Below are positions 6,618-25,959 of a stretch of 25,959 nucleotides of DNA, piece after piece. Origin of the DNA: a virus; IMG/VR virus record IMGVR_UViG_3300028548_006009, positions 1 through 25,959 of that record. One strand, written 5' to 3'. The notes under the pieces are model-generated. The model did not search any database. It was not told where the DNA came from and was given only the letters and a program-made list of their open reading frames with translations. The position numbers and the translations under genes are program-made. Position 1 is the stretch's first letter. Each line of letters opens with the position of its first letter.

Positions 6618-6626
6618 GTTTATTAA

Positions 6627-6644
6627 GTTAGTAATTTAACTAAC
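6627..6644 (+). repeat. Leader inverted repeat, copy 3, with compensatory change
   Basis: GTTAGT and ACTAAC arms flank the same AATTTA loop. Relative to copies 1 and 2 both arms change together (C-G to T-A at the innermost pair), which keeps the dyad. It again begins ten bases after the -10. Confidence 0.8.
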
Positions 6645-6671
6645 TTAATAACGAACACAAGGATAATTAAA

Positions 6672-7602: not shown

Positions 7603-7915
7603 TATCGTAAACTAATCCATCGTTACCATTTTGACCAATTGCTGCCAATCGTGTTTGGTCCACATCTGGCCAATCAACATCATGTGAATCTAACTCATTG
7701 AGAAAGGCATCGCAATCTGCTAACACTTCTGCTGTTGTTATCCAGCTAGTGTAAGCCCCTATCAAATTATCCTCATCAATGTCATCCCAATCTCCATCAG
7801 CTCTTACATTAAAATTCTCGTCTTCTAAAGACCAGTAAACAATAATGTTTTCATTTTGAGCCAGCTCAGAGTTAATTTTAATAGACATATTATATTTAGA
7901 ATATGACGTGTTCAT
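7595..7915 (-). CDS. Unknown very acidic protein (106 residues)
   Basis: The family is not recognised. It is rich in Asp/Asn (DGDWDDIDEDN near the middle, DSHDVDWPDVDQ later) with no basic patches, which could suit a DNA mimic or a small inhibitor, but nothing shows this. The ATG overlaps the DUF3310 stop (ATGA). It is preceded by AAGGA placed very near the start, so coupling from the upstream gene probably matters. Confidence 0.65.
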   Translation of the reverse strand: MNTSYSKYNMSIKINSELAQNENIIVYWSLEDENFNVRADGDWDDIDEDNLIGAYTSWITTAEVLADCDAFLNELDSHDVDWPDVDQTRLAAIGQNGNDGLVYDNE

Positions 7916-8130
7916 TCCTTGTTCTCCAAATCATTAACCATCTTTTCTAGGTAGTGAATTGCTTTTAGCAAATCTTCCTTCCTATTACTTTTATCTCTCA
8001 AGATATACTTGATTGCATTTCCACTATAAAAGCATAATTGATAGCTGTCAATAATATCCCAAGGTTGAATAGTGTTTTTTAAGTAGTGGTCACCACCTAC
8101 TTGTTGTTTCATTGGTGATTTGATATCCAT
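7912..8130 (-). CDS. DUF3310 family protein (SaV-like)
   Basis: The 72-residue protein has the full DUF3310 signature: QVGGDHY at residues 10-16, IQPWDII, a GNAIKYILR helix, and K-E-D-L-L-K-A-I-H-Y-L. DUF3310 is common in phages, sometimes labelled nucleotide kinase, with function not firmly known. Its ATG overlaps the phosphoesterase stop (TAATG), and GAGGAGAG lies just upstream. Confidence 0.93.
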   Translation of the reverse strand: MDIKSPMKQQVGGDHYLKNTIQPWDIIDSYQLCFYSGNAIKYILRDKSNRKEDLLKAIHYLEKMVNDLENKE

Positions 8131-9323: not shown

Positions 9324-9325
9324 TA

Positions 9326-9544
9326 TTAATCCTTTTTAAAAACATCACTTCTTACTTCATGTAAAGGCAAGCCTAACAAATCTGCGGCTTTCTCTGCAAG
9401 CGATGGATTGCCGACAACACCAAGCTGTCGAACTCCAATACAAACAGAATCAATAAGGGCTTTGGAACACCCCATGTCTTTAACAAACTTAGCACGTTTA
9501 TACTCTGCGATAGCAGCAATCAACTTATCATTTTTCATTTTCAT
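9326..9544 (-). CDS. Cro/YdaS-like small helix-turn-helix regulator
   Basis: The 72-residue protein begins with a charged helix, then KFVKDMGCSKALIDSVCIG, which can be read as an HTH, and ends with LGLPLHEVRSDVFKKD, similar to the tail of YdaS/Cro-type phage regulators. Family assignment is moderate. A second ATG at 9538 is in frame; the GAGAG upstream suits either. The gene heads the minus operon and starts just beside the GGTTACAAC repeats, so it may read or regulate that region. Confidence 0.55.
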   Translation of the reverse strand: MKMKNDKLIAAIAEYKRAKFVKDMGCSKALIDSVCIGVRQLGVVGNPSLAEKAADLLGLPLHEVRSDVFKKD

Positions 9545-9561
9545 TCTCTCTCTTTTTTAAA

Positions 9562-9773
9562 GGTTACAACAAAAGGTTACAACAACCTTATTTTTATCTG
9601 TCATCAAATCAAATTAAAATATTATTTTATTTTACCAACAAAATAAAATAACCACTATATTGTTGTAACTTGTAACCTTTTATATATAAGTAGTTAATAA
9701 ATATAATAAAAAGTAGGTTACAACAAAGGTTACAACAAAGGTTACAATAAGCCTAAATTAGCTTGTTGTAACC
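9562..9773. repeat. Iteron-like array of GGTTACAAC; candidate replication origin
   Basis: Plus-orientation copies of GGTTACAAC are at 9562-9570, 9575-9583, 9716-9724, 9728-9736 and 9740-9748 (last base T). The last three are exactly 12 bases apart. Inverted copies are at 9662-9670 and 9669-9677 (one mismatch each) and a perfect one at 9765-9773 inside the 3' end of the primase gene. Between the groups is an A+T-only hairpin and other AT-rich DNA. Repeats at fixed spacing beside a primase-helicase gene and easily melted DNA are the hallmark of an iteron origin; binding by the nearby primase or HTH protein is inference. Confidence 0.75.
9622..9651. repeat. Perfect 12-bp A+T inverted repeat within the iteron region
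   Basis: TTATTTTATTTT and AAAATAAAATAA flank ACCAAC. Neither strand has a T-run after the stem, so it is not a standard terminator. It is a good candidate for the unwinding element or cruciform of an origin. Confidence 0.7.
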
Positions 9774-12059: not shown

Positions 12060-12084
12060 TGTTTTTTCCTTTTAGTTAAATTTT

Positions 12085-12114
12085 ATAATAACACACGTTG
12101 TGTTATTGTGTGAA
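12085..12114 (-). promoter_or_regulatory. Promoter for second primase
   Basis: On the minus strand a -35 TTCACA (complement of 12109-12114), 18-base spacer and -10 TATTAT (complement of 12085-12090), each five of six to consensus, precede the primase gene. The inverted repeat at 12087-12107 fills the spacer. Confidence 0.55.
12087..12107. promoter_or_regulatory. Perfect 9-bp inverted repeat, probable operator
   Basis: AATAACACA and TGTGTTATT flank CGT. The ACA-N3-TGT core is the same layout as the TACA-N3-TGTA motifs in the other promoters. It lies between two divergent genes and overlaps candidate promoters in both directions, so one bound protein could control both replication units. Confidence 0.7.
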
Positions 12115-12126
12115 ATACTTTATCAT
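12098..12126 (+). promoter_or_regulatory. Putative promoter for DUF2800-polymerase unit
   Basis: A -35 TTGTGT (12098-12103, three of six), 17-base spacer and -10 TATCAT (12121-12126, five of six) precede the gene at 12158. The -35 is part of the right arm of the operator dyad. The weak -35 makes this a tentative call. Confidence 0.4.
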
Positions 12127-12157
12127 TAAAACTCAAAACTAATAAAAGGTATTTAAA

Positions 12158-13252
12158 ATGAAGCACGCAAAGTTATCGGCCAGTGGTTCGGCCAAATGGT
12201 TGCGATGTCCGGGATCTTTAAAAGCAGAGGAAGGATATCCTAACACGTCATCTCCTTTTGCACTGGAGGGATCTTGTGCCCACGAAGTAGCAAGTGAATC
12301 GTTAATTACTAAATCACATCCTACCTTTTATATAGGCCAACTATTTCATAAAACAGTAGTCACTCATGAAATGGCTGACTTTGTTCTTGAATACACAGAG
12401 TATGTTGATGCGTTAATTACCGAAGATTCATCAGTTTTTATTGAAACAAAGGTAGACTTCTCAAATTACGTACCTCACGGATTTGGAACAGCCGATGCTA
12501 TTGTGGTCACCGATAGACATGCTCATGTTATAGATTTAAAGTATGGCAAAGGTGTGCCAGTCTATGCTGACAATAACAGCCAAGGCATGTTATATGCTAT
12601 TGGCGTTCTTAACGATTTGGGCCACATACATGACATAGAAGAAGTCACCGTGCATATTGTTCAGCCTAGAATAAGAAATTTTTCAGAGTGGACCATCAGT
12701 GTTAAAGATTTAATCACGTGGGCCACGAGAACATTAGCGCCAGCGGCAGCTCTTTGTTTAACAGATGATGCGCCGAGACATGCATCAACGGTAGCTTGTC
12801 GATGGTGCAAAGCTAAAGGAAATTGTGCAGAACTTTATGCGCTGACCAACAAAACCATAACAGGAATGTTTGATAGTTTGGACCAAGACATGAGCGACGA
12901 ACAAACTAAAATGATATTAGACAATCGTTTGCTAATTGAAGCATTTATGAAAGCTGTCGAGACTAACGCCAAAAATAAATTAAGCGACGGTCAATCAGTA
13001 GCAGGTTATAAGTTGGTGGCAGGAAGAAGTACAAGAAGATGGTCAGAAGATGCTTACAAAGACTTGGAGGTTAAGCTAGGATATCAAGCATACTCACGCA
13101 AATTGATTGGATTAGGCGAGGCCACAAAATTAATATCAAAAGAGTTTGTAGCCGAGCACACTGTAAAACCAGACGCCAAGCCAGTCTTAGTGCAAGAGTC
13201 AGATAAACGCGAGTCAATTAGTAATATAGGCTTTGAAAACTTAGACGCCTAG
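12158..13252 (+). CDS. DUF2800 PD-(D/E)XK nuclease, Cas4/RecB-like
   Basis: The 364-residue protein opens LSASGSAKWLRCPGS, the DUF2800 hallmark, with H41 in the CAHEVASE helix, D112 in GTAD, and IDLK (D125, K127) as the nuclease core. Four cysteines, C17, C213, C216 and C222, are placed as in AddB/Cas4 nucleases that hold an iron-sulfur cluster. The family is thought to process DNA ends in phage recombination. AAAGG lies before the ATG. It leads the plus-strand replisome unit, ahead of its usual partner DUF2815. Confidence 0.9.
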   Translation: MKHAKLSASGSAKWLRCPGSLKAEEGYPNTSSPFALEGSCAHEVASESLITKSHPTFYIGQLFHKTVVTHEMADFVLEYTEYVDALITEDSSVFIETKVDFSNYVPHGFGTADAIVVTDRHAHVIDLKYGKGVPVYADNNSQGMLYAIGVLNDLGHIHDIEEVTVHIVQPRIRNFSEWTISVKDLITWATRTLAPAAALCLTDDAPRHASTVACRWCKAKGNCAELYALTNKTITGMFDSLDQDMSDEQTKMILDNRLLIEAFMKAVETNAKNKLSDGQSVAGYKLVAGRSTRRWSEDAYKDLEVKLGYQAYSRKLIGLGEATKLISKEFVAEHTVKPDAKPVLVQESDKRESISNIGFENLDA

Positions 13253-13304
13253 TGTTACTATTTAAACGTGCACTTGATGCACATAACTAAAAGGATAAAA
13301 TACA

Positions 13305-13802
13305 ATGTCTAAAATTCACTTAAAAAATGTAAGGTTATCATTCGCTTCAATCTTTCACCGGGCTGTATTTAACGGCGACGAGGGTAAATATGAAGCAACG
13401 TTCTTAATACCAAAGACCGACGAAGCAACCAAGGAAGCTCTCGATGAAGCTATCGCAGATGCTCTCAAAGATGCGAAAGTTAAAGTGCCATCAGATAAGT
13501 CATGCTTAAAAGACGGTGACGATTCCGAGTACGATGGTTATGCAGACCATTGGTCATTTAAGGCAGCAAACAATAAACGTCCAACGATTATTGACCGAGA
13601 TAAAACACCATTAGTAGAAGAAGATGGCAAGCCTTATTCTGGCTGCTATGTAAACGCTGTTGTTGACATTTGGGTCCAAAACAACAGTTATGGTAAGCGA
13701 GTGAATGCCAACCTCCACGGCGTTCAGTTTGTCAAAGATGCTCAATCATTCGGCTCAGGTGGAACACCCGATGCAACAGATGAGTTCGATGACTTAGACT
13801 AA
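13305..13802 (+). CDS. DUF2815 single-stranded DNA-binding protein
   Basis: The 165-residue protein has the DUF2815 start (KNVRLSFASIF), an F-L-I-P-K strand, and the YSGCYVNAVVDIWVQNN core of an OB-fold. It ends in an acidic tail, DEFDDLD, expected to recruit partners. Related phage proteins bind ssDNA. AAGGATAAAATACA precedes the ATG. A GTGCA-CTTGA-TGCAC dyad lies in the short gap after the DUF2800 gene. It is followed by a strong terminator. Confidence 0.9.
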   Translation: MSKIHLKNVRLSFASIFHRAVFNGDEGKYEATFLIPKTDEATKEALDEAIADALKDAKVKVPSDKSCLKDGDDSEYDGYADHWSFKAANNKRPTIIDRDKTPLVEEDGKPYSGCYVNAVVDIWVQNNSYGKRVNANLHGVQFVKDAQSFGSGGTPDATDEFDDLD

Positions 13803-13819
13803 TAACCATAAACAAGATT

Positions 13820-13846
13820 GGGGCGGCTTCGGCTGCCCCTTTTTTT
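13820..13846 (+). terminator. Strong rho-independent terminator between SSB and polymerase
   Basis: An eight-pair stem GGGGCGGC with GCTGCCCC (one wobble) and a TTCG loop is followed by seven T. Because no clear promoter was seen between it and the polymerase start at 13866, polymerase expression probably depends on partial read-through, keeping it below SSB. Confidence 0.88.
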
Positions 13847-13865
13847 ATTATAAGGAGCAAAGCTA

Positions 13866-15602
13866 ATGCCTCTTGCCTTAGACACAGAATGTTACCCAAA
13901 CTTCCATTTAATTTGCATCGCAGATAAAGAATGGCATACATCAAACAAGTACACCAAGCAGCAGCGCACAGAAATACGTGACACAATGCGAAGTGCTACG
14001 ACGTATGGCTTTAACTCTTTAAATTATGACATGCCAATCATTCATGCTGCATTAAAAGGCAGCAGTGTGAAAGCGCTTTATAAAATGTCTAAAGATATCA
14101 TTGATAATCAGCAGCCGCATTGGATCACCTATCGTGAGCATAATATCGAACAGTTCAGCGGTTTCGATCACTTTGACATTAAAGAACCTGCACCCGCCGT
14201 TATGATTTCTTTGAAAATGTATGGCGCAAGAATGCACATGCCAAACCTTCAAGACTTGCCCTACGACCCTCATTTAGAATTAAGCGATGTTCAAAAAGAA
14301 GAAATAATTAAATATTGTTTCAATGATATCGCAACAACTAAAGCCTTGTACTCAGCCATCAAGGGTCGCTCTAAACTTCGTAATCAATTAACAGATAAAT
14401 ACGGCCAAGATTTGAGGTCCAAGTCTGATGCTCAGATAGCAGAAGCTATTATAAAAAGTGAAGTTGGTAATGTTAAAAAAACAAAAGCGCCAGAGTTTGT
14501 TAAATATACATTCCCTAAATTTATACGCAGAACTAAACTTACCGCCGAAGTATATGACTTCATAAGCGAGAGAAAGTTTGAGCTAAAGAAAGGCAAGATA
14601 ACATTGCCAGATGACATGCCAACAGTGACTATAGGAACGATGGTCTATAAGTTTGGTGTTGGAGGAATACACTCGACAGAAAGTAATCAAGAAGTTAAGC
14701 CAACAAAAAATCAAATATTAGCTGACCGAGATGTCGGGTCCTACTACCCTGCAATAATTTTAGAACTTGGCTTGTACCCAGAGGGTGTTGGCAAGAAGTT
14801 TTTAAAGACATATAAAAGTATTTTTGACCAGCGACTAGAAGCAAAAGAGAAAGCAAAAACTGGCGACAAACAAGCAGCGTTAATACGTGATGGTTATAAA
14901 ATTGCGTTAAACGGCAGTTACGGTAAGTTTGGTAGCGAGTATAGTTTCTTGTACTCTCCACAACTTTTATTGCAGACAACAATCACTGGCCAGTTGGCTT
15001 TGCTGCAATTAATAGAAGCCCTTCATAAAGAAAACATTATCACTGTCTCAGCAAACACGGACGGTATCGTAAGTTTATTCGATAAAGATTTATATGAAAG
15101 TTACGATGGTATCTGCAAAAAGTGGGAAAAATTTACAGGGTTTACTTTAGAAGAAACTCAGTACAGAAGTTTACATTCAGCAAATGTTAATAATTATGTG
15201 GCCATAACACCCAATGGCGAAGTCAAAGGAAAAGGCGATTATGCACAACCTTCTTTGATGAAATCACCACGGTGTTCGATACTAGCTGAATCAGTAAAAG
15301 CATTTCTTTTGAACGGAACAAAGATAAGCGAGACCATTAAAAACTGCACGGACCTCACAAAGTTTATAGCAGTTAGACAAGTAAAAGGTGGAGCAGTATG
15401 GAAAGGGCAAGCGCTGGGCAAAGTGGTGAGATGGTATTATTCAACCAATGGTGAAGCCATAAATTATTTATCGAACGGAAACAAAGTTGCTACGAGCGAT
15501 GGAGCAACTCCGATAATGACATTGCCGAAAACATTACCGTCAGACATTGACTATGACTTGTATATTGCAAAGGCCAACAAAATGTTGGGTGAATTATGTT
15601 AG
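13866..15602 (+). CDS. Family B DNA polymerase with 3'-5' exonuclease
   Basis: The 578-residue replicative polymerase has Exo I LDTE (D6, E8), Exo II FNSLNYD (N50, D55) and Exo III YCFND (Y150, D154). Polymerase motif A is DVGSYYP (D289), motif B KIALNGSYG (K345, N349, Y352), and motif C NTDG (D399) in place of the more usual D-T-D. It is short for a B-type enzyme, like compact phage polymerases. AAGGAG lies ten bases before the ATG. The stop overlaps the VRR-NUC gene. Confidence 0.92.
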   Translation: MPLALDTECYPNFHLICIADKEWHTSNKYTKQQRTEIRDTMRSATTYGFNSLNYDMPIIHAALKGSSVKALYKMSKDIIDNQQPHWITYREHNIEQFSGFDHFDIKEPAPAVMISLKMYGARMHMPNLQDLPYDPHLELSDVQKEEIIKYCFNDIATTKALYSAIKGRSKLRNQLTDKYGQDLRSKSDAQIAEAIIKSEVGNVKKTKAPEFVKYTFPKFIRRTKLTAEVYDFISERKFELKKGKITLPDDMPTVTIGTMVYKFGVGGIHSTESNQEVKPTKNQILADRDVGSYYPAIILELGLYPEGVGKKFLKTYKSIFDQRLEAKEKAKTGDKQAALIRDGYKIALNGSYGKFGSEYSFLYSPQLLLQTTITGQLALLQLIEALHKENIITVSANTDGIVSLFDKDLYESYDGICKKWEKFTGFTLEETQYRSLHSANVNNYVAITPNGEVKGKGDYAQPSLMKSPRCSILAESVKAFLLNGTKISETIKNCTDLTKFIAVRQVKGGAVWKGQALGKVVRWYYSTNGEAINYLSNGNKVATSDGATPIMTLPKTLPSDIDYDLYIAKANKMLGELC

Positions 15603-15874
15603 AAAGTGCAATTGAGAAGTCGTCAATGGCAGCGGCTAAAAAAGCAGGGTGGTGGGCCATAAAATTGGTCCCATCGTTTATAGCTGGATTACCTGACAGA
15701 ATGTTCATCGGTCACGGCAAGGTTGTTTTCATTGAATATAAAACAGAGAAAGGTAAGCTCACAAAACTCCAAGTTGCTGTGCATAAAAGATTTGAAAAGC
15801 ATGGGATAGCTGTTTATGTGTGTCGAAGTAAAGAGGAAACCATGTTGGTTTTAAATAAATATGAAACTTCATAA
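15596..15874 (+). CDS. VRR-NUC domain nuclease
   Basis: The 92-residue protein is a minimal VRR-NUC: GLPDR with catalytic Asp, a VVFIEYKTEKG strand (E and K), then an alpha helix QVAVHKRFEKHG and YVCRS. The family includes Holliday-junction and flap nucleases. It overlaps the polymerase end by 7 bases and the helicase start by 14 bases, so the three are made together. A pairing of VRR-NUC with SNF2-type helicase after a polymerase is usual in phage replication cassettes. Confidence 0.93.
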   Translation: MLESAIEKSSMAAAKKAGWWAIKLVPSFIAGLPDRMFIGHGKVVFIEYKTEKGKLTKLQVAVHKRFEKHGIAVYVCRSKEETMLVLNKYETS

Positions 15875-17150
15875 ATATCAACTAAAAGCTGTTGAGTTTA
15901 TTAAAAAGAAAAAGCGAGTAGCGCTACTTCTTTCGATGGGCTTGGGTAAAACAGTTTCAACATTAACGGCTATATCTGATTTAAATGTTCGAGTTTTAAT
16001 TGTAGCTCCATTGCGAGTTGCCAACACTGTTTGGAAACAAGAAGCAGAAAAGTGGGAACATTTAAATCATTTAGATATCGGCATTGCAACAGGAACTGCT
16101 GCACAGAGACGAGAAGCATTTAGTCATGACATTGTAGTTATCAATCGAGAAAACATCGCATGGATGATGGCCAATATAGCTCCTAAATTTGACATGCTAG
16201 TTGTTGACGAAAGTAGCTCGTTTAAATCAGCAAAGTCTGCTCGTTTTAAAGCGCTGAAAAAATTAGAAGTTGAGTACTGTGTGCTATTAACTGGCACTGT
16301 CTCGCCATCAGGTTTAATGGACCTTTGGTCTCAATATTTTCTTTTGGACCGAGGTCACAGATTAGGCAGAACCATTACTGCATTTAGAAATAGATTTTTT
16401 AGGCAGGGTGGCTTCGGCGGTTATCAGTATGAGATACGAAAAGGTAGCGCCGACATTATTCACAATCTTGTAAAAGATATCTCTTTATCAATGGCAGCTG
16501 AAGATTATTTAGATATGCCCGACAAAATAAATTTAACGCAAGCAATAGAGCTGCCAGAAGATGTTCAGGAAAAATACACGACCATTCAAAATGAATTTGT
16601 TTTAGCCATCAATGACGATGAGATATCTATCTTATCAGCAGCGAGTTTAAGCAATAAACTACTGCAAATGGGCAACGGATTTATTTACACCGAAGAAGGT
16701 GAACCTATTTATCTACACGATGCAAAAATAGATGCTCTGTCAGAAATAATAAACGACAACACTGGCGATAATATATTAGTCTTTTATAATTTCAAAGCTG
16801 ACCTTGAGCGTTTACAATCTAAGTTTAAGCAAGGTGTTGTTTTAGATAAAAAGAATAAAGCAATAGACGAATGGAATAAGGGCAATATACCATTGTTATT
16901 TGCGCAACCAGCAAGCGCTTCAATGGGCATTAATCTGCAAAAAGGAGGTAACATTATTGTGTGGTATGGCCTCACTTGGAATTTAGAACATTATCAGCAA
17001 GGAAACGCCAGACTACATCGCCAAGGGCAAGATAGCTCAGTTACTGTGATGCATCTTGTTGTTAAAGGCGGCATTGATGAAAAAATAATGCTGGCACTAA
17101 CTGGCAAAGCTAAAACACAACAAGACCTGCTCGACTTTTTAAGGGCTTGA
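15861..17150 (+). CDS. SNF2-family DNA helicase/translocase
   Basis: The 429-residue protein has Walker A SMGLGKT at 25-31, motif II DESS at 116-119, motif III LLTGTVSPSG, and in the C-lobe ASASMGINLQKG and QGNARLHRQGQ (motifs V and VI). This is the phage SNF2 type. It is paired with VRR-NUC and the polymerase; a role in fork or branch remodelling is inferred. Its stop codon lies within the -35 box of the next promoter. Confidence 0.93.
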   Translation: MKLHKYQLKAVEFIKKKKRVALLLSMGLGKTVSTLTAISDLNVRVLIVAPLRVANTVWKQEAEKWEHLNHLDIGIATGTAAQRREAFSHDIVVINRENIAWMMANIAPKFDMLVVDESSSFKSAKSARFKALKKLEVEYCVLLTGTVSPSGLMDLWSQYFLLDRGHRLGRTITAFRNRFFRQGGFGGYQYEIRKGSADIIHNLVKDISLSMAAEDYLDMPDKINLTQAIELPEDVQEKYTTIQNEFVLAINDDEISILSAASLSNKLLQMGNGFIYTEEGEPIYLHDAKIDALSEIINDNTGDNILVFYNFKADLERLQSKFKQGVVLDKKNKAIDEWNKGNIPLLFAQPASASMGINLQKGGNIIVWYGLTWNLEHYQQGNARLHRQGQDSSVTVMHLVVKGGIDEKIMLALTGKAKTQQDLLDFLRA

Positions 17151-17174
17151 CATTAATAGTACAACCTGTAATAT
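17147..17174 (+). promoter_or_regulatory. Promoter with embedded TACA-N3-TGTA operator
   Basis: TTGACA (17147-17152), 16-base spacer, TAATAT (17169-17174). TACAACCTGTA (17160-17170) abuts the -10. The layout matches the promoters at 6005 and 6590, more than 10 kb away. Confidence 0.8.
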
Positions 17175-17208
17175 ACATAAATGTACTTACTTACTTTAGG
17201 AGAATTAA

Positions 17209-17466
17209 ATGACAAAGCGACAACCTCACAATTCTGTAATTATGACTTTACCAAGATCACATATCGTTGGTGACATGGAGGATTCAGCGAAGTTACTGAC
17301 TAAACTTTTACAAAAATTAGGAATGGAAGAGTGCCGAGTTTTTGTTAATCATAGCGGTAGGTACACTATTCAATATAGCAAAAACACAAGATTCTTTTTA
17401 TTTGAAGAATCAAAGGCCGATAATTCAGAATCTATTTTATTAAACTTAGTAGAATTAAGTGATTGA
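17209..17466 (+). CDS. Unknown protein (85 residues)
   Basis: The family is not recognised. It is a compact, mixed charge protein with a possible beta-beta unit (ECRVFVNHSGRYTIQYS). AGGAGAATTAA precedes the ATG. It is transcribed from the promoter at 17147 together with the next gene. Confidence 0.7.
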   Translation: MTKRQPHNSVIMTLPRSHIVGDMEDSAKLLTKLLQKLGMEECRVFVNHSGRYTIQYSKNTRFFLFEESKADNSESILLNLVELSD

Positions 17467-17674
17467 ACATTTGAGCCTTCAATATGTGAATGAGCCAATC
17501 CACACTTTTAACGGTGAAGACGCTGTTATAAGGTGTGATGAGGACTGGACCATTGGCTTACTAGGAGAGTGGTTAGTTGGTTTTGACATTGAAGCCTTGG
17601 AAATGATTCAAATGTGGGCAATAGATGCCGATTCTATTCAAGAAAACTTTCAATTAAAAATACTTGTCGATTAA
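17459..17674 (+). CDS. Unknown acidic protein (71 residues)
   Basis: The family is not recognised. It is acidic with many aromatic residues (W-T-I-G-L-L-G-E-W-L-V-G-F and later IQMWAIDAD). The start is taken as GTG at 17459, overlapping the preceding stop by eight bases; a TTG at 17471 is a less likely choice. No good ribosome site is seen, so coupling is assumed. Confidence 0.55.
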   Translation: MIEHLSLQYVNEPIHTFNGEDAVIRCDEDWTIGLLGEWLVGFDIEALEMIQMWAIDADSIQENFQLKILVD

Positions 17675-17678
17675 AAAG

Positions 17679-17706
17679 TTGCTATTAACTATACACTGTG
17701 TATAAT
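17679..17706 (+). promoter_or_regulatory. Promoter with embedded TACA-N3-TGTA operator
   Basis: TTGCTA (17679-17684), 16-base spacer, TATAAT (17701-17706). TACACTGTGTA (17692-17702) is a fully symmetric form of the motif abutting the -10. Confidence 0.8.
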
Positions 17707-17732
17707 AGATTGTGAACTTACGGGAGACTACA

Positions 17733-17909
17733 ATGACTGAACTTGAATTAGCGGTACTTAAAGAAGCACGTAAAATTATTTTAGAACGTAAGCAAGGCAT
17801 GGCCGATTATTTAAACGGTTGTGATTTTTCCACAAAAGGTAAATCAGCTGATTGGCGAGAAGGTTGGAATGCTCAAGCTGAAATAGTTTATTACGGAGAT
17901 ATAAGATGA
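17733..17909 (+). CDS. Unknown small helical protein (58 residues)
   Basis: The family is not recognised. Its C-terminal WREGWNAQAEIVYY segment is typical of small phage proteins containing a W-x-x-G-W/R-A motif. The ATG at 17733 has GGGAG seven bases upstream; a GTG at 17712 is in frame but precedes that site. It ends by overlapping the next start (ATGA). Confidence 0.65.
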   Translation: MTELELAVLKEARKIILERKQGMADYLNGCDFSTKGKSADWREGWNAQAEIVYYGDIR

Positions 17910-18160
17910 ACAGAAAAGCAATACGCACAGCATTAATAAGTAGGGTAGATATATCAGATAATTTTAGCAATGCGCACACGTTTGACGTGGACGTATTAGA
18001 GCAGTCTCCAAATTTAGCTGACCACCTTAATGATTTAATTAACTCAGCAGATAAAGAAAAAACTTTGGCAATAGCCCGAAGGATACAAGAATCAATACTT
18101 AAAGGTGTTGATAATGTATCGGAAGATATTTTAGACACATTCGACGAGCCTAGTTTCTAA
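17906..18160 (+). CDS. Unknown acidic protein (84 residues)
   Basis: The family is not recognised. Mostly helical, acidic C-terminus (NVSEDILDTFDEPSF). A GGAG lies seven bases before the ATG. It overlaps the upstream gene by four bases and the downstream membrane-protein gene by one base (TAATG). Confidence 0.65.
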   Translation: MNRKAIRTALISRVDISDNFSNAHTFDVDVLEQSPNLADHLNDLINSADKEKTLAIARRIQESILKGVDNVSEDILDTFDEPSF

Positions 18161-18372
18161 TGAAAAATTATTACTCAACTATGTTTATTGCCGTTGCCAT
18201 TATCATTAGTTTGTCATTGTCGTTGTTGACATGGTCCGACCTACCGACGGTTGGTGTGACAGAAAGTGGCCAATGTGTCTATATCGAAACTGGTCCAGAT
18301 TTTAAAAGAAAAAGTTGCCCAAAAATACTACCAACAAAGTATCACATGATATACGTGTCAGATTTACGGTGA
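18160..18372 (+). CDS. Small membrane-anchored or secreted phage protein (70 residues)
   Basis: Residues about 7-24 form one hydrophobic segment (FIAVAIIISLSLSLL), a signal anchor or secretion signal, followed by a short domain with two cysteines (GQCVYIETG and KSCPK) and PTKYHMIYV. The two Cys could form a disulfide outside the inner membrane. The layout resembles small membrane proteins of marine phages with E-C-V..L-P-x-K-Y pattern; this is from memory and weak. Its stop codon is inside the first hairpin of the RNA-like element. Confidence 0.65.
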   Translation: MKNYYSTMFIAVAIIISLSLSLLTWSDLPTVGVTESGQCVYIETGPDFKRKSCPKILPTKYHMIYVSDLR

Positions 18373-18511
18373 AGGACTCCTGAATAGGCCAATCGTAGGG
18401 TCTTCACACAAGGTGGTATCGGTGTTCTTCACTGATATTCAATTGCCGGAATACCACTTACTGCGATGATGGACGGAGTGTGGCCGGTTGGCGAATTGGG
18501 GCCAATCGGTC
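18369..18511 (+). ncRNA. Multi-hairpin non-coding element, possible structured RNA
   Basis: Three hairpins follow one another. P1 pairs GTGAAGG (18369-18375) with TCTTCAC (18401-18407). P2 pairs AGGTGGTAT (18411-18419) with ATACCACTT (18451-18459), with an inner or alternative stem ATCGGTG-TTCTT-CACTGAT (18418-18436). P3 pairs GGCCGGTTGGC (18482-18492) with GCCAATCGGTC (18501-18511), 11 pairs with two wobbles. GCCAATCG also occurs at 18388-18395 and can pair with the P3 left arm, and ACTCC (18376-18380) can pair with GGAGT (18475-18479). The segment is richer in G+C than its surroundings, has no credible gene, and sits just before the gene at 18540. No known RNA family is recognised. Confidence 0.55.
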
Positions 18512-18539
18512 ATATGACTTAAATTAAAAGGAAAAAAAA

Positions 18540-18767
18540 ATGAGTTTAAAATTAGAGCATGAAATAAGTAAATTAAAAAAAGAGTTAGCTAGTGAAAGTC
18601 TTAGAATTGATTGGATTATCAGTCAGATGAAAAATGGCATGACGGAGCTTGCAACGATAACAGTCACTAAAATATTAGAGCAAGGATTAGAGGCTGACAT
18701 CGTAGAAAAAACAACAGATGAACAATTAAGAGATTTAAATTTAGGGTCGATGAACAATGAGTCTTAA
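18540..18767 (+). CDS. Unknown coiled-coil-like protein (75 residues)
   Basis: The protein begins MSLKLEHEISKLKKEL and is helical with heptad-like hydrophobic spacing in its first half. AAAAGGA lies eight bases upstream, next to the end of the structured RNA element. The next gene also begins MSLK and may be a distant paralogue. Confidence 0.65.
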   Translation: MSLKLEHEISKLKKELASESLRIDWIISQMKNGMTELATITVTKILEQGLEADIVEKTTDEQLRDLNLGSMNNES

Positions 18768-18960
18768 AGTTCAAGGGCAAATCGCTTTATTGACTGAGAA
18801 ACTCTATAAAAACGAACAAGCCCTTGATAGCGCAATAGCTCAAATCCATGTTTTGAGCGTAAAAATAGACCATATGAATGATGACATTAGTGGCAAAAGA
18901 TACGCTGAGTTAAAGACAATGCACGAGTTGGAAGCTGAGTTGAAGAATCATGGATGTTAA
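18757..18960 (+). CDS. Unknown coiled-coil-like protein (67 residues)
   Basis: The protein begins MSLKVQGQIALLTEKLYKNE and is helical throughout. It overlaps the upstream gene by 11 bases and the downstream cysteine-rich gene by 11 bases. The family is not recognised. Confidence 0.6.
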   Translation: MSLKVQGQIALLTEKLYKNEQALDSAIAQIHVLSVKIDHMNDDISGKRYAELKTMHELEAELKNHGC

Positions 18961-19081
18961 ATTATCACCATGCTGCAACGATGTACTCGTCAGGTTTATT
19001 AGTCTGAATAAAAAGATGTGCAATAAATGTCATAAGTATTACGAATGGAATTTAAAGAAAGACCAGAAATCTTTATTTTAG
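18950..19081 (+). CDS. Cysteine-rich microprotein, possible zinc ribbon (43 residues)
   Basis: The short protein has CC at residues 8-9 and CNKCH at 24-28, then a YYEWNLKKDQKSLF tail. A CC...CxxC(H) layout with a following W-x-L-K-x-x-Q-K-x-L-F is seen in small phage zinc-binding proteins; this is pattern recall. It starts inside the end of the upstream gene and stops ten bases before the hydrolase start. Confidence 0.65.
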   Translation: MDVKLSPCCNDVLVRFISLNKKMCNKCHKYYEWNLKKDQKSLF

Positions 19082-19091
19082 GAGAAATAAA

Positions 19092-19505
19092 ATGATTACT
19101 ACAGCAGCGTTATGTTTAGCAATGAATATCTACCACGAAGCTCGTGGAGAGCCTTTAGCTGGCCAGCTTGCAGTTGGGTACAGTGTCATGAATAGAGTGG
19201 CAGATGAGAGATATCCCAACACCGTATGTGGAGTTGTTCATCAGGCTCGATACAACGCATGGGACATGGACAACCCAATCAAACACAAGTGTCAATATTC
19301 TTGGTTTTGCGACGGCTTGTCAGATAAACCTACTGACAGCAGAGCGATGCTAGAATCAATTGTTTTATCTAAAAAAATAATAAATGGTACAGCAACAGAC
19401 ATTAGCGAAGGCGCAACACATTATCACGCTCATTATGTAAATCCTTACTGGTCCGTGCACATGGAACCTGTTTTAGAAGTTGGCGACCATCTTTTTTATC
19501 GCTAA
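19092..19505 (+). CDS. SleB-type cell-wall hydrolase (Hydrolase_2)
   Basis: The 137-residue protein has the family core MNIYHEARGEP with the predicted catalytic E16, then GYSVMNRV, CGVVHQ, QYSWFCDGLSD and ATHYHA. SleB/CwlJ-type enzymes cleave the glycan part of peptidoglycan. No classical signal peptide is clear, although the first 12 residues are hydrophobic. TTTTAGGAGAAATAAA precedes the ATG. It ends the plus-strand small-gene run, and its stop overlaps the end of the converging gene. Confidence 0.9.
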   Translation: MITTAALCLAMNIYHEARGEPLAGQLAVGYSVMNRVADERYPNTVCGVVHQARYNAWDMDNPIKHKCQYSWFCDGLSDKPTDSRAMLESIVLSKKIINGTATDISEGATHYHAHYVNPYWSVHMEPVLEVGDHLFYR

Positions 19506-19741
19506 CGCATCATTGGTTTTAATTGGACTTTGTAAATATAAGCATAACCGTGACCTAAAAATTCAACTTTAAAGAATGAGATAATTATTTTTTCAGTCGG
19601 CAGCATAACATCGTCGTACTCTATCAATGATTTAAAACCAATGTCAGGTAGCCAAAATCCTTTGACGGGATGACCAAATAGTAACCATGAACCTTCATCG
19701 TCTGTTCTAAAAAGAACACTTTCCCACACTCGTCTACTCAT
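19502..19741 (-). CDS. Unknown protein (79 residues)
   Basis: The family is not recognised. It is beta-rich with several aromatic residues (WESVLFRTDDEGSWLLFGHP, KGFWLPDIGF). GGAG lies six bases before the ATG. It follows the M15 peptidase gene in the lysis unit, so a lysis-associated role is only suggested by position. Confidence 0.6.
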   Translation of the reverse strand: MSRRVWESVLFRTDDEGSWLLFGHPVKGFWLPDIGFKSLIEYDDVMLPTEKIIISFFKVEFLGHGYAYIYKVQLKPMMR

Positions 19742-19752
19742 CGCAAGCTCCG

Positions 19753-20139
19753 TTAGTCTTTTAATTCAAAATGCGGAAAGTCCTGCCAAGACTTCCATAA
19801 CCCACCCCATTTTAATTTATAACCAAGTTCTGCTGCGGCTTGTAACATTGCACACGCAACAATGGCGAGGTCTTGTTTGGACCAAGATGCTTTGCCGTCA
19901 ACATAAGCATAAACGTCTAATGCTTTGCCACTTTGATGGTATGATTTATTAAAGACTCCATCAGCTTTAGATTTATTTGAAGCGAATAATCCTGCTTGAT
20001 GTTCGGCTGTTCTTAAACCGCCAAGTTTGGGTATTCCAAAATCAATATTAGTAATTTGAATAGCTAAATTACTAATATCAATTAGTCGCTGGTCAACTCC
20101 TTCCCGATTTAATAAAGAGTTCTTACTAAATTTAAACAT
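19753..20139 (-). CDS. M15-family peptidoglycan endopeptidase (endolysin)
   Basis: The 128-residue protein has the zinc motif SYHQSGKALD (H68, D75) and the closing DFPHFE (D120, H123), with GGLRT near 40-44 as in L-alanyl-D-glutamate/VanY-like phage endolysins. It cleaves the peptide part of peptidoglycan. The ATG overlaps the stop of the holin-like gene (TAATG), the typical holin-endolysin order. Confidence 0.92.
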   Translation of the reverse strand: MFKFSKNSLLNREGVDQRLIDISNLAIQITNIDFGIPKLGGLRTAEHQAGLFASNKSKADGVFNKSYHQSGKALDVYAYVDGKASWSKQDLAIVACAMLQAAAELGYKLKWGGLWKSWQDFPHFELKD

Positions 20140-20414
20140 TACTGAGTCGGTAAAATGTAGGCCATAAAAGTAATTCCTGAAGTTAATATAATAAAGAAAA
20201 TACGTTCAGCAATCCTACTTGATTCAGTATTTTTAATCACCAAGTCATTAAGTTTATTAAGCCTAACAGTAATTGCATCCATTCGTTTATCTTGGTCTAT
20301 ATTGTTCTGACTAAAATGGTCCAGTCGCGTGTCAAGCTCAACAAGTTTAGTTAGAGATTCACTCATTTTATCTAGTTTAATTTCTAGCTTGTCGAACCTT
20401 GCATCAACTTCCAT
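20139..20414 (-). CDS. Holin-like/XhlA-like membrane protein
   Basis: The 91-residue protein is a charged amphipathic coiled coil for about 65 residues and ends with one hydrophobic segment (IFFIILTSGITFMAYIL). This layout is that of hemolysin XhlA/spanin-like phage proteins acting next to the endolysin. The ATG at 20414 has GAGGG upstream; an ATG at 20426 overlapping the upstream stop lacks one. Confidence 0.75.
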   Translation of the reverse strand: MEVDARFDKLEIKLDKMSESLTKLVELDTRLDHFSQNNIDQDKRMDAITVRLNKLNDLVIKNTESSRIAERIFFIILTSGITFMAYILPTQ

Positions 20415-20425
20415 AATATCCCTCA

Positions 20426-22498
20426 TTATTGTTGTTCTGATGGCAACGCCATCATAAGTTTCGTGTTACCATCGCCTCCATATGATTGCTGATTAGCCCA
20501 TCTTCTATCTATTTCGTCTAGTTTTTCTTTTATTGGGTCAACTGAAGTGTCGCCTCGGTTATCAACCGATGGCAGCAAAGCCGCAGCGTCTCCTCCAAAT
20601 CGTTTTACTACCATTGATTGATCAGCAAGTTGTTTCGCCACAGTTGGCGCTCTTTGTTGCAACAAATTTACAACAGTAGCGATACCCTCTGGACCTTCGG
20701 TTAATTTCTTCGCCATCTTTTCTTGCACAATTGTGTTGAGTTTATTTGGTCCCGTGATTGAGTTCATAATAAGACGAACAATTGAGGAATAATTACCACT
20801 CTGAAGAAAACTAAGCGTATCTTCACTCGCTTGTGCCAGTTTACTTACCCCAATAGCATTCTCAACAGTATCAGAGCCTCTAAGTAGTCTACTAGTATAA
20901 GCAAAGACTTGGCTTTCAAGCTCTAAAGCACGAGTAAGAAGGTTAGATGTTGCTTTTTCAGGAAAAAGTGTTTCTAAGTTCTTTTTCGTTGTTCCGCTAC
21001 CAATAAATTTTTGAGCAACATTTGAATTAGAAGAGGGATTACGAATTTTTTCCAGCATATTTTGCACAGCGCCAGTCCTATAACCATCTTGAGCGGCAAA
21101 GCTTAAAGTTTCAAGGTAGGCTTTAAGTTCCTGTGGTTGAACATTATTAAACGTTTTACGACCTTTGTCTAGAGCACTAGCAATTTCTGCATCATCTCCA
21201 AAAAACTGCCGCGCGTTTGCATATACAGATTTTCCAGTATTTGGATCTATTGTCGCATTATCTGCAAGTTTTACCATCTCCCTAGATAAATCTCCTATTA
21301 CCCTTTTTTCATTCGCTATTAAAGAACCATCCAACCGTGTCTCCTTTGACATAGCGTTTAAGGCTTTCTTCACCTCGTCTATAACTTCTATGCTGATTGG
21401 ATCGGAAGGGTTATTTAAATTTGGAATCAGTGACGCAGTATCGCCCGCACCGCTAATTCGGGCAATATCTGCTTCTGCCCTTATAACTTTAGTACCTTTC
21501 ATGAATGCTTCATTCATATAAGGGTTATCTTTTAAAGAATTCATTAGTGCAGGATTTATAATCGCAGGAAAATCCTTAGCCTGTTTATAAAGGGGTCCTG
21601 CAAGTTTCTTGCTTGCGTTAATAGCATCTTCAGCTTCAAAAAAGTCAGCATCTCCCAAATATTTTGTAATTTGATTTGCAACCCTCTCAGCTGGTGCACT
21701 ATTTGCGTTTCTAGCTACGGCTTCTCCCATTATGGTGGGTACATCTCCTTGAGCTAACCTAGTGATAACTTTTGCTTGATTGGCAAGACCTACATTAGTA
21801 TCTAGAAGTTTAAGAGGAACATCTAACTCTTTGGCTTCATTAGCAACTTTTTTAATATCATCAAACGCCTCTTTCGTTAGACCGGGAGGTAACGCGGATA
21901 AAAGTTGATCATCTGCCATTGCGTCAGTAATAGTTTCATCAAGAAGCTCTCCTGTTACCTCATCAATCGCCGACCCCCTTCTATTTCTAAAATAATCTTT
22001 AGCTACATTGAAACCTTTACCAATGGCGACACCTGCGCCACCACCTACTATTCCGGGAAGAACACCTTCTTTAGCACCAGTCATTCTTTCACCTATGTCG
22101 GCACGCCCAGCCCCAGCCAAAGCACCTTCCCCAGCAAAATAACCCAGCGCTGATTTTTTTGGGTTATTTATAATGTAGTTTTTAGCTTTGTTTAAAAGAC
22201 TCGCGTTTCTTTGCGCAGAGGCCAATGCAAGGGGGCCTGACGCTCCACCTGTAAATAGTGTACTCGCGGCTAGTCCCAATGTGGGTAAAAAACTACCTAT
22301 AATTTCGCCACTTAATGCTGCCCCTTTGTTTGCATTATAAAACCGATTGTACTCTTTATTAATAGTTGAGAGTTCTTCCTCATATGTTTCAGGCCCACTC
22401 AATGTTCTGATACGAGCTTCAATTTCATCTCCCCAGCCCCTAGCAAGACCTTGCCCAAGAGTAGCTCTAGCTAGATTACCATAGTAATTATCAGCCAT
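20426..22498 (-). CDS. Large virion protein, probable internal/DNA-ejection protein
   Basis: The 690-residue protein starts with a NLARATLGQGLARGWGDEIE segment seen at the N-terminus of phage internal or ejection proteins, followed by Gly/Ala-rich hydrophobic stretches (about 60-85 and 145-165) that could cross a membrane. The rest is helical and charged. Its place next to two further large repetitive proteins and before holin-lysin supports a virion role. Family name is not certain. Confidence 0.65.
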   Translation of the reverse strand: MADNYYGNLARATLGQGLARGWGDEIEARIRTLSGPETYEEELSTINKEYNRFYNANKGAALSGEIIGSFLPTLGLAASTLFTGGASGPLALASAQRNASLLNKAKNYIINNPKKSALGYFAGEGALAGAGRADIGERMTGAKEGVLPGIVGGGAGVAIGKGFNVAKDYFRNRRGSAIDEVTGELLDETITDAMADDQLLSALPPGLTKEAFDDIKKVANEAKELDVPLKLLDTNVGLANQAKVITRLAQGDVPTIMGEAVARNANSAPAERVANQITKYLGDADFFEAEDAINASKKLAGPLYKQAKDFPAIINPALMNSLKDNPYMNEAFMKGTKVIRAEADIARISGAGDTASLIPNLNNPSDPISIEVIDEVKKALNAMSKETRLDGSLIANEKRVIGDLSREMVKLADNATIDPNTGKSVYANARQFFGDDAEIASALDKGRKTFNNVQPQELKAYLETLSFAAQDGYRTGAVQNMLEKIRNPSSNSNVAQKFIGSGTTKKNLETLFPEKATSNLLTRALELESQVFAYTSRLLRGSDTVENAIGVSKLAQASEDTLSFLQSGNYSSIVRLIMNSITGPNKLNTIVQEKMAKKLTEGPEGIATVVNLLQQRAPTVAKQLADQSMVVKRFGGDAAALLPSVDNRGDTSVDPIKEKLDEIDRRWANQQSYGGDGNTKLMMALPSEQQ

Positions 22499-24408
22499 TA
22501 TTTATCTCCTTTAGGTCTTCTTTCGTAGTAAGTACCATCTTGAACTTTTTTCATAATTGTATTTTGCGCTTTAACGCTGTAGTTAAGATCGTTTATTATT
22601 TGATTTATCATGTCATCCCTAGCCGTACCACTTAAGGCGTATAAACCTGTCAATTTCTCCAAGGCGTTCCTTTCTCCATCTGATATCTGACCTCCGAAGG
22701 TTGCTTTAAGTTTTTCAATAGCACCTTGACTTAATATGTTATTTAGCCTTTCGGTAGCTACAACTTGAGGGTCATTTGGAGAAAGAAAAGCCAGACCCGC
22801 CATATTTATTCTGCCGCTAGGGGAAAAATTAAATGCTATTTTAGAAAGATCAAGCGCTTCTCGTAAGTTATCAATAGCTCTCAGTCCACGAGTACGCTTT
22901 TCATCAGCTACGTTAAATACTTTTTGCTCCGAAGTAGTTAAAGTGTTTGTTTTTCGTTCTAACGCATCAAGCTCAGCTTGCTGTTGTCTTAGCTCTAATT
23001 CTTGTAGATTCTGAATATAAGCATCATACTCAGGGCTACCCGGCACAAGCCCAGCCTCTCGCGCAGCTACTGCTTTAACTGTTTGTCCTTCTTGATATTC
23101 TCTCTCTGCCTGAATGTTATTGATATCGGTCAGGTTTTCTGATAAGTACCTAATTTCATCCTGCAAAGCCTTTCTTCTTTCTTTTTCCTGACCTGAAAAC
23201 ATATTAATATTTTGGTTTTTAATAGATAACGCAAATTTACTCGCTGCGAGACCAAGCGCTCTAGATTCACTACCAGCCTCTCTTTCCTCTTTACTTACGT
23301 CAGCCATCGCTGCATTAGCGTTGCCTAAACTTTCAAAGAAGTTTCCGGTTTTAGTTGGTGCTCCCAAAGCCGCTGCAATTCTAAACCATTTTTCTGACTC
23401 AGAAGGGCCACCGCTTATAGCGTTTGCCTCAGCTCTCATTTGTGCTTCTATATCGTCGGAAGCAGCATTAGATTCTTGCCTTAACGCTTGCAGTTGTGCT
23501 GAGTCTTGAAATGACTGTGTATCCCTCAGTTCTTGCAGTTGTGCTTCTATATTATTGTATTGTCTACTTTGAGAAGAAAGAGGTCTTCTTACATTAGCTT
23601 GAGGTTGAGCTTGAGCTTGAGCTTGAGCTTGAGCTTGAGCTTCAGCTTCAGCTTCAATCTGTCTATTAGCAAGTGGGTCTGCCATCACACCCATGCCGGG
23701 TGTATTTGGCTCAGGATAAACACCCGCAAGCGCCTCTTCACTTAAAAAATCCAAATCTAAAACATTTCTTAAATTATACGGACCACCTTCGGCGTAACCA
23801 CCCTTTTTAAGAAACATTGGATGAACGCCCGGTCTTTCCGCAACAAACGGCTCAGGTGATGTCATATACTCTGGAGTTTGTAAAATTGTAGTGTTTGCAT
23901 TATAAAGAGGAGTTTCACCAAGTTCTCTAGCAGAATTTCTAAAGTTAGTTAGTAAGTCTGCGTCCGAGACACCACTATCTCTTTGTCCTTGCCAATACGC
24001 CATCCCTTCAACATCGCCATCTCTACCCAAATTATTTTGATATAAGTCGGGTATAGAAAAAGAAGTATTATATTGAGGATCATTTAGTGATGTTTCATAC
24101 CCAAATCCATTACCTCGTAAACGCCTATCATACTCGTCTGAGTATTTTTGATAAGCCGCTTGGTCTATAGGGACAGTTCTCATGTCCTCATTATACCTAT
24201 CAAACAGAGCCGTTTCTTCGGCAATACCTTTGTCGTAAGTAGCCTTGGCAGAATCGTAATATTTAGCCCCAACATTTGGAGCAACTAATTGAGACTCAGC
24301 AGGGTTAGTTGGTGCAGGACCAGTTGGCAGCTCGCCCCCAGCATATGCCACCTTTGAAGACGAATTTAATCCGAACCGTTCTTTTAATCTGTTTAATTCG
24401 TAACCCAT
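22498..24408 (-). CDS. Virion-associated protein with DUF4214-like segment
   Basis: The 636-residue protein has a DUF4214-like stretch (LYQNNLGRDGDVEG then YWQ) near residues 120-150, a GGYAEGG motif near 200 that recurs in podovirus virion proteins, a low-complexity Ala/Gln/Glu repeat near 250-270, and a long helical C-terminal half. It overlaps the ejection-type protein by one base (TAATG) with GGAG upstream of that start. A role in the internal head or tail is inferred from context. Confidence 0.6.
   Translation of the reverse strand: MGYELNRLKERFGLNSSSKVAYAGGELPTGPAPTNPAESQLVAPNVGAKYYDSAKATYDKGIAEETALFDRYNEDMRTVPIDQAAYQKYSDEYDRRLRGNGFGYETSLNDPQYNTSFSIPDLYQNNLGRDGDVEGMAYWQGQRDSGVSDADLLTNFRNSARELGETPLYNANTTILQTPEYMTSPEPFVAERPGVHPMFLKKGGYAEGGPYNLRNVLDLDFLSEEALAGVYPEPNTPGMGVMADPLANRQIEAEAEAQAQAQAQAQAQPQANVRRPLSSQSRQYNNIEAQLQELRDTQSFQDSAQLQALRQESNAASDDIEAQMRAEANAISGGPSESEKWFRIAAALGAPTKTGNFFESLGNANAAMADVSKEEREAGSESRALGLAASKFALSIKNQNINMFSGQEKERRKALQDEIRYLSENLTDINNIQAEREYQEGQTVKAVAAREAGLVPGSPEYDAYIQNLQELELRQQQAELDALERKTNTLTTSEQKVFNVADEKRTRGLRAIDNLREALDLSKIAFNFSPSGRINMAGLAFLSPNDPQVVATERLNNILSQGAIEKLKATFGGQISDGERNALEKLTGLYALSGTARDDMINQIINDLNYSVKAQNTIMKKVQDGTYYERRPKGDK
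23597..23656. repeat. Ten-unit hexanucleotide repeat in a virion gene
   Basis: The plus strand reads GCTTGA-type hexamers ten times in a row (one GGTTGA, three GCTTCA). In the protein this is a run of Glu-Ala, Gln-Ala and one Gln-Pro pairs. Units are in frame, so slippage would lengthen or shorten the linker without frameshift. Confidence 0.9.
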
Positions 24409-24409
24409 T

Positions 24410-25855
24410 TTAACCCTCTCTAGGCTTTAAAGCATTATAAGTAGCTAAACCAGTAGCTGCTTGTGTTAAAGGAGATGCGTTATAAGTAGCTCCAGTTGTT
24501 GCACCAGAATTTGTCGTTCTTACAGGAGTTATCGGAGCCATTCCGCGAATTTGTGTTCCTAAGAAGTCTAACTGACGTTGTGGGTATAATCTTCTGTCCA
24601 AATCTTGTTTTTCCGCAGCGGATAACTCCATCTGTCTTTGTTGTTGCTGCTGTCTACCAGCAGCTTCAAGAGCAGTTAAGTCTCTATACTCTGCCCCTTG
24701 AGCTGCCATAGCCATATCTGCGCTAGTTTGCATAGCACCAATTTGACGCTGTAAATCTTGAGCTTCTGCATTTTGAAAAGCCTGAGCTGCACCAGCTTGC
24801 ATTTGCTGCTGTTGAGCACCAGCTGAAGTTCGCATATTTCCAAGATTGCCTAACTGCGACATTTGTTGACCAGTAAGTTGTCCGAGGTTTTGACCAACAG
24901 ACGCTAATCTACTTGCATCTTGACCCATTAACTGGCCAGCGGTAGAACCTAAATTTGCATACTGAGAACCGCCCTGTAAAACACGAGACAAATCAGCGCC
25001 AGAAATACTGCCAACAGTTCCAGCTAAACTTGCTTGTCTTTGCTTGTCTGCCGCTGAACTTTGAAGCGCTTGTGCATAACCTTGTTGTTGTGCATTAGCT
25101 TGTTGTTGTAATACGGCTTCTTGAGTGTCTCTTAAAGCACGAGACCCAAATTCACCCATATTACGACTTCCAAATTGACCAGCTTTAATAAATGAATCAG
25201 ATACTGCTGGAAGCAAGTTTTCAGATAAATTCCTAGCTCCTTGTTGAGCTAAAACATCCATGACATTCGTTTGATATGGGTTCATGTACGAACTTACATC
25301 AGATGCCGAACTTTGAGAGGCTTGATTTAAGTAAGGATTGGCCGCTGTAAGCGCCCTATCAGAAAGAGCTTGAGCAGTCGTTGCATTAGCTTGGTTAAGA
25401 TAAGGATTAGCAGCGTTAGTGGAACTCATACCCGCTGCTTGATTTAAATAACCTTGACCAGCTCCTACAATGTCTAGGCCGCCAGCTTGATTAAATAAAT
25501 TTTGACCAGCATCTAAATTTTGATTCACTAAATCTTGTCGTAAGTATTGCTGCTGCGCTTCGCCTAAAGTACCAGCTGTTCCAGCACTTTGCATTGCTTC
25601 CATACCAGCTTGAGCTGTACCCATGTCTTGCTTCCAAGCACCTTGAGCGTTAGCAACACCTTCCAATGCTTGATTTTGATACGGTTGCATCTTTGCAACT
25701 GTTGGTAAATCATAGGATTCGTATGGTTTGTTTGCTATATTTTGAGACCAATTTACTTGGTTAAAAATAGCATCCTGCATCCATTTTGGAGTCTCTGAAG
25801 TAGACTCACTGTAAGATGTCGCAGATTGCGGAGTTCCTTGGAATAAACTGGCCAC
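24410..25855 (-). CDS. Gln/Ala-rich virion protein (ejection/tail-associated)
   Basis: The 481-residue protein contains SYMNPYQTNVMDVLAQQG near 190-207 and AGQFGSRNMGEFGSR a little later, a signature of a widespread phage protein found among tail or internal virion genes. Long Gln/Ala coiled-coil-like repeats fill much of the remainder. The start is GTG at 25855, with AAGGAG seven bases upstream and one-base overlap with the preceding stop (TAGTG). Confidence 0.7.
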   Translation of the reverse strand: MASLFQGTPQSATSYSESTSETPKWMQDAIFNQVNWSQNIANKPYESYDLPTVAKMQPYQNQALEGVANAQGAWKQDMGTAQAGMEAMQSAGTAGTLGEAQQQYLRQDLVNQNLDAGQNLFNQAGGLDIVGAGQGYLNQAAGMSSTNAANPYLNQANATTAQALSDRALTAANPYLNQASQSSASDVSSYMNPYQTNVMDVLAQQGARNLSENLLPAVSDSFIKAGQFGSRNMGEFGSRALRDTQEAVLQQQANAQQQGYAQALQSSAADKQRQASLAGTVGSISGADLSRVLQGGSQYANLGSTAGQLMGQDASRLASVGQNLGQLTGQQMSQLGNLGNMRTSAGAQQQQMQAGAAQAFQNAEAQDLQRQIGAMQTSADMAMAAQGAEYRDLTALEAAGRQQQQQRQMELSAAEKQDLDRRLYPQRQLDFLGTQIRGMAPITPVRTTNSGATTGATYNASPLTQAATGLATYNALKPREG

Positions 25856-25959
25856 TATGCAGCTCCTTGTTTAAGGTATGCCAATGGAGATTTAGCATCA
25901 GCGCTAAATTTACCCTTAGCTAAATTTTTGCCTTTGTGAGCGCGAATTTGTTTTCTCAT
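25855..25959 (-). CDS. C-terminal end of an unknown basic protein, cut by the window edge
   Basis: The last 34 residues are visible, Lys-rich, ending in SPLAYLKQGAA. An ATG happens to be the first codon at the edge, so it could be complete, but a longer protein continuing to the right is as likely. It precedes the virion genes in the same unit. Confidence 0.5.
   Translation of the reverse strand: MRKQIRAHKGKNLAKGKFSADAKSPLAYLKQGAA

Follow-up and report, generated by a model that had tools for sequence, protein, structure and literature searches.

Structured RNAs of phages include manA, wcaG, and PhotoRC-II of marine cyanophages, which accompany genes for metabolism or photosynthesis in T4-like cyanophages (PMC2864571). 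In Lactobacillales and Listeria, the L17 downstream element is a structured RNA located directly after ribosomal protein L17 genes (PMC2864571). The cyanophage RNAs are nearest in setting to the element described here, which is a structured RNA of a phage as well; however, the element has another gene neighborhood and gives no match to the Rfam models of those RNAs. The L17 downstream element likewise lies 3′ of a gene rather than 5′, and again the phage element has no Rfam match. Autoregulation of gene 32 in phage T4 involves an H-type pseudoknot in the leader of a phage mRNA. Both are pseudoknots in phage mRNA beside a coding region, but that of T4 is in the leader and much smaller, and, unlike in T4, no single-strand-binding-protein gene follows the phage element. 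Pistol and HDV-like ribozymes are also compact pseudoknotted folds; they differ in helix order, since here the loop of P3 contains the 3′ strand of helix P1, and P4 stands outside the knot. With the families of Rfam 15, the likeness is that of structured RNA modules of similar size. None of the 4,227 covariance models of that release matched at gathering score anywhere in the window, that is, the whole 25,959-nucleotide stretch of viral DNA analyzed here. Sub-threshold matches of the element and its homologues, searched to an E value of 10, had E values of 2.8 to 8.2, belonged to unrelated families, and differed between homologues.

From the comparison of diverged phage sequences, we infer that positions 18368 to 18525 of the window are a new family of conserved pseudoknotted RNA within phage plus-strand mRNA (Table 1). 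The original prediction of an undescribed structured RNA at this site is thereby strongly supported, given covariation in four helices across three phages and the absence of both an Rfam match and a coding pattern. Most of the window is near-identical to IMG/VR contig 3300028548_004680 (12 differences in 11,287 bases, none of them in the element). The comparison set consisted of three diverged sequences, two of them from one metagenome: the window; contig 3300009441_000106 (L082), reached via the 75-amino-acid (aa) open reading frame (ORF) downstream of the element; and contig 3300028548_004585 (L241), reached via alignment of the upstream membrane protein, which is 55% identical. L082 carries an ungapped, 82%-identical copy in the same location (L082:1048-1205), and the element of L241 (L241:5201-5360) is 59% identical to that of the window over the element. 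In the element numbering used below, window position 18369 is 1, so that position k corresponds to window position 18368 + k.

Table 1. Coordinates of the conserved RNA, its parts, and its flanking genes in the window
Feature	Position	Strand	Partner or support
Upstream gene, 70-aa membrane protein, phrog_8293-like	18160..18372	+	precedes RNA in 3/3 phages
Whole conserved pseudoknotted RNA element, ~158 nt	18368..18525	+	homologues L082, L241; covariation
P1 5′ strand (pseudoknot), overlaps upstream stop codon TGA 18370-18372	18368..18377	+	partner 18424-18433
Invariant CUCCU, first C paired in P1	18377..18381	+	weak candidate partner of downstream Shine-Dalgarno
Possible P2.1 hairpin (18386-18390 / 18399-18403), loop = P2 5′ strand	18386..18403	+	
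P2 5′ strand	18392..18398	+	partner 18461-18467
P3 5′ strand, P1 3′ strand directly after	18412..18423	+	partners 18445-18448, 18451-18458
P1 3′ strand, within P3 apical loop	18424..18433	+	partner 18368-18377
P3 3′ strand, bulged bases 18449-18450	18445..18458	+	covariation
P2 3′ strand	18461..18467	+	partner 18392-18398
P4 terminal hairpin, 14 pairs (18479-18492 / 18501-18514), 8-base loop	18479..18514	+	covariation
Downstream gene, 75-aa ORF	18540..18767	+	present in L082, absent in L241

Pairing was evaluated by counting compensatory changes. Between the window and L082, P2 (24-30/93-99) changes from AUCGUAG/CUGCGAU to GUCAUGA/UCAUGAC, with four double changes and one single change, and P1 (1-9/56-64) changes from GUGAAGGAC/GUUCUUCAC to GUGAAAGAC/GUCUUUCAC. 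The search for helices common to both sequences also returned an invariant P3 core and the 14-bp P4. In two-sequence column shuffles, three double changes occurred once in 500 and four never; likewise, none of 600 simulations in which the window sequence changed without constraint reached three. As the original prediction had proposed, a covariance model (R1) was built from homologues, using the window and L082 with P2, P3, and P4 only, leaving out P1 and L241. As an independent test, R1 found the element at the end of the membrane-protein gene in L241 with 88 bits (E value of 2.9e-23). Moreover, P1 is kept there as AUCGGUGAUC/GAUCAUCGAU, with ten pairs and no mismatches, although it was absent from the model.

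Across the three sequences, 127 of the 129 pair cells are standard, and 21 pairs carry compensatory double changes. All 30 cells of the 10-bp P1 (6 double changes) and all 21 of P2 (5 double changes) are paired, as are 35 of 36 in P3 (6 double changes) and 41 of 42 in P4 (4 double changes); for the P1 count, the one extra base of L241 was put in the 12-base joint after P1. Together, P2 to P4 show 15 doubly changed pairs versus 5.7 ± 1.8 in shuffles, with none of 500 reaching 15, and only about a third of the cells pair when the partners are slid by one column. With the P1 region aligned gap-free, its six double changes were reached in 3 of 500 shuffles. Where the other two rows were replaced by unconstrained evolution of the window sequence, 500 runs gave at most four doubles against the six observed. 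An unbiased scan of all helices ranked P1, P2, P4, and P3 at the top, and 300 column shuffles yielded no helix with at least five double changes. The cells include 18 G-U and no A-C combinations, indicating that selection acts on the RNA and that the plus strand is transcribed. Based on this covariation, we regard the predicted secondary structure P1 to P4 as secure, and the element is almost certainly conserved as an RNA fold.

The strands follow in the order P1 5′, P2 5′, P3 5′, P1 3′, P3 3′, P2 3′, and then hairpin P4, so that P1 crosses P2 and P3. An H-type pseudoknot is made up of P3 and P1: the P3 5′ strand directly abuts the P1 3′ strand (18423/18424), and a joint of 11 to 12 bases leads from P1 3′ to P3 3′; judged from known H-type geometry, these joint lengths are compatible with a coaxial stack of P1 and P3. 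The base of P3 is closed by P2, and P4 lies outside, 3′ of the knot. Invariant columns make up 61% of the unpaired versus 41% of the paired positions in the three sequences, and the conserved unpaired bases include CUCCU (9-13), UCUUCA (33-38), and ACGG (105-108). The hairpin P2.1 (18-22/31-35) is possible but not proven, with 14 of 15 cells paired and two double changes, which is the chance level for three sequences. A contact of the P4 loop (18438-18444/18494-18500) was rejected, having seven pairs in two phages, four of seven in L241, and no compensation.

The predicted 11-pair terminal hairpin is present and extends to the 14 pairs of P4, and the element does start on the stop codon of the membrane-protein gene and end about 30 bases before the ATG at 18540. 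Conversely, the three stems in series that had been proposed were not confirmed: over the three homologues, the local stem at 18373-18378/18399-18404, the first of the series, pairs in 13 of 18 cells, and in L241 it is almost entirely lost. The 5′ strand of this stem is engaged instead in the long-range pseudoknot with 18424-18433; this helix, P1, had been overlooked and is among the two best supported. A suggested ACTCC/GGAGT contact retains four of five pairs in L082 and three of five in L241, with no compensation on direct reading of the alignment.

Within the element, the changes are distributed as 9/10/10 over codon positions, whereas the neighboring genes show a third-position excess (19/12/36, 6/4/27, and 6/3/20). 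The even distribution indicates that the element is not coding, and the protein-like substitution that would have spoken against an RNA was not observed. In L082, the frame after the upstream TGA is open through the whole element (L082:1053-1247), where three stops interrupt it in the window. Given these further stops and the even substitution pattern, TGA read-through in L082 was rejected, and the open frame was judged coincidental.

When folded as a single sequence, the plus strand of the segment reaches −51 kcal/mol (z score of −2.7, matched by 3 of 200 shuffles), and the reverse strand is unremarkable (z score of −1.2). The G+C content of the segment ranks among the highest 0.3% within the window. 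In a plus-strand scan of the window, the element has the lowest folding energy with a z score of about −2.3, and other segments of the scan reach −6. Since this z score is ordinary within the window, single-sequence folding alone would not settle the matter. Elsewhere on the plus strand, strong fold z scores begin at the end of an 85-aa ORF (17394-17625; −6.2 and −3.8, 20 shuffles each), and two segments with low fold z scores (−5.4 and −4.0) lie between two minus-strand genes at 9519-9825.

The plus-strand gene string comprises an 84-aa ORF, the 70-aa membrane protein (match to phrog_8293, E value of 1.7e-6), the element, the 75-aa ORF, a 67-aa coiled coil, a 43-aa cysteine-rich ORF, and a cell-wall hydrolase (Pfam Hydrolase_2, E value of 1.1e-21). 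In all three phages, the 5′ strands of the element overlap the 3′ end of the same gene within one gene string; the upstream stop codon lies in P1 in the window and L082 and in P2 in L241. The gene directly after the element is the 75-aa ORF in two phages and possibly a 25-aa ORF in L241; farther on, all three have the 67-aa and 43-aa ORFs. The cell-wall hydrolase gene lies downstream on the plus strand in two of the three phages, the window and L082. At that place after the cassette, L241 has a minus-strand phage lysozyme gene (L241:6014-6406). The 43-aa ORF (18950-19078), with a zinc-ribbon-like CC...C..C pattern, is shared by L082 and L241, with weak conservation in Cobetia phage Carin1.

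Given this context and the overlap with the upstream gene, a cis-acting, translation-linked element was placed at the head of the ranking, closely followed by a processed, trans-acting RNA. A conserved pseudoknotted RNA together with a cis-acting, translation-linked role between genes is our preferred, though tentative, explanation as a whole, and the cis mechanism is its uncertain and weakly supported part. The element would act in cis, from its place between the membrane-protein gene and those that follow. Because the last bases of the upstream gene form part of the P1 5′ strand, P1 would have to be opened by any ribosome that completes translation of this gene; when such translation is weak or over, the compact fold would form and might alter access to, or survival of, the downstream mRNA. 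A possible link would be base pairing between the downstream Shine-Dalgarno sequence and the invariant CUCCU located where the P1 5′ strand ends. This pairing is possible but weak: its energy is −4.7 to −7.7 kcal/mol, and 4 to 19% of the random 9-mers of the element bind as well. The position overlapping the end of the same gene in three of three phages was counted for a cis role, as was the finding of no terminator-like site near the element. The different next gene in L241 weakens the case for control of one particular downstream gene, and the position of the ribosome-binding site, which the conserved fold leaves unburied, also counts against the cis mechanism. It is unlikely that the element would represent a new functional class, either a new ribozyme or a translation-gated switch sited at the end of the membrane-protein gene, controlling the downstream lysis-proximal genes.

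The difference in the directly downstream gene also fits an RNA that is cut from the operon mRNA, or accumulates owing to a nuclease-resistant fold, and acts in trans by binding a host or phage protein or RNA. We consider this a credible but less probable explanation; the compact, self-contained fold, the conserved unpaired bases, and the lack of an expression platform would suit it. Nevertheless, the RNA keeps a constant place, always overlapping the end of the same gene, the phage contigs showed no copy at any other place and none as a stand-alone gene, and no promoter of its own is evident, promoter-like sites near the element being at chance number. The same compactness and unpaired bases could suggest a self-cleaving ribozyme of a new class, with a nested pseudoknot, but we hold this to be very improbable because no Rfam ribozyme model matches and the helix order is unlike that of HDV-like and pistol ribozymes. 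A role at the DNA level, as a replication origin, packaging site, or cruciform, would account for G+C-rich inverted repeats in intergenic space, but the G-U cells without A-C cells, together with the crossing helices, point to an RNA of one strand. An unrecognized coding region would conflict with the missing codon-position bias, so that these last two readings are largely refuted and the least probable of all.

The original prediction had also proposed a switch between two folds, in which copies of a duplicated GCCAATCG compete for the same strand of the terminal hairpin. The duplication is present in the window, but it reads GCTAGTCA/GTCAATCG in L082 and is lost in L241. A helix between the first copy and the P4 5′ strand (18388-18394/18486-18492) keeps 20 of 21 cells in the three sequences, and two of the three phages offer a local alternative for the P1 strand; both would suit a ligand-responsive riboswitch. 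However, that alternative helix is largely G-U, and its two double changes are at chance level, with 213 of 300 column shuffles containing a helix with at least two. It would also need to displace the 14-bp P4, which appears too stable for easy displacement. Moreover, no expression platform was recognized, with no terminator-like sites and a ribosome-binding site that lies outside the conserved fold and is not sequestered. Such a riboswitch is therefore improbable, and the proposed route via GCCAATCG is unsupported. Competition between two folds is possible in general, with no specific support, as the local stem fails in L241, the duplication is specific to the window, and the alternative helix is at chance.

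By the searches made, the element is rare: a set of 2.9 million viral contigs yielded three diverged copies. Phage and plasmid sequences gave no relevant BLASTN match to the element. Among 78 loci with helicase relatives, many of them fragments, only contig 3300028548_004680 carries the RNA and the other 77 are without it. The closest isolate relatives of the window, Pseudoalteromonas and Vibrio phages, are distant, with helicases at most about 51% identical; none of the four scanned (Pseudoalteromonas phages AL and PHS21 and Vibrio phages LP.1 and 1.017.O) has the RNA. No match was found in 394 plus 369 gammaproteobacterial genomes, a search run without a positive control. Pseudomonas phage Epa43 contains a homologue of the membrane protein with no such RNA after its gene, indicating that the RNA is not an obligatory companion of the protein, and Cobetia phage Carin1, with its relative of the 43-aa ORF, has no such RNA either. 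Pattern matches in L083 and L084 (inside coding sequence), in other contigs, and at 80 genome-contig loci were judged to be chance, as was a weak R1 match in L095 (E value of 0.083), which covers the 3′ end of one gene and is situated shortly past that of a second, convergent gene.

The locus provides a phage RNA outside any Rfam family, whose secondary structure, pseudoknot included, is established from compensatory changes that arose in nature. Its constant site beside a small membrane-protein gene and its rarity make it a clean case for a lineage-specific phage RNA function, and the natural variants are ready-made mutants for testing the role of the RNA.

Regarding the source of the window, positions 1 to 6579 match contig 3300028548_004585 at 99%, and positions 6124 to 25959 match contig 3300028548_004680. 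A stretch of about 450 bases (6124-6579) is common to both contigs, and past it 3300028548_004585 diverges. The window may come from a recombinant phage or from chimeric assembly; the RNA element lies well within the part that resembles 3300028548_004680.
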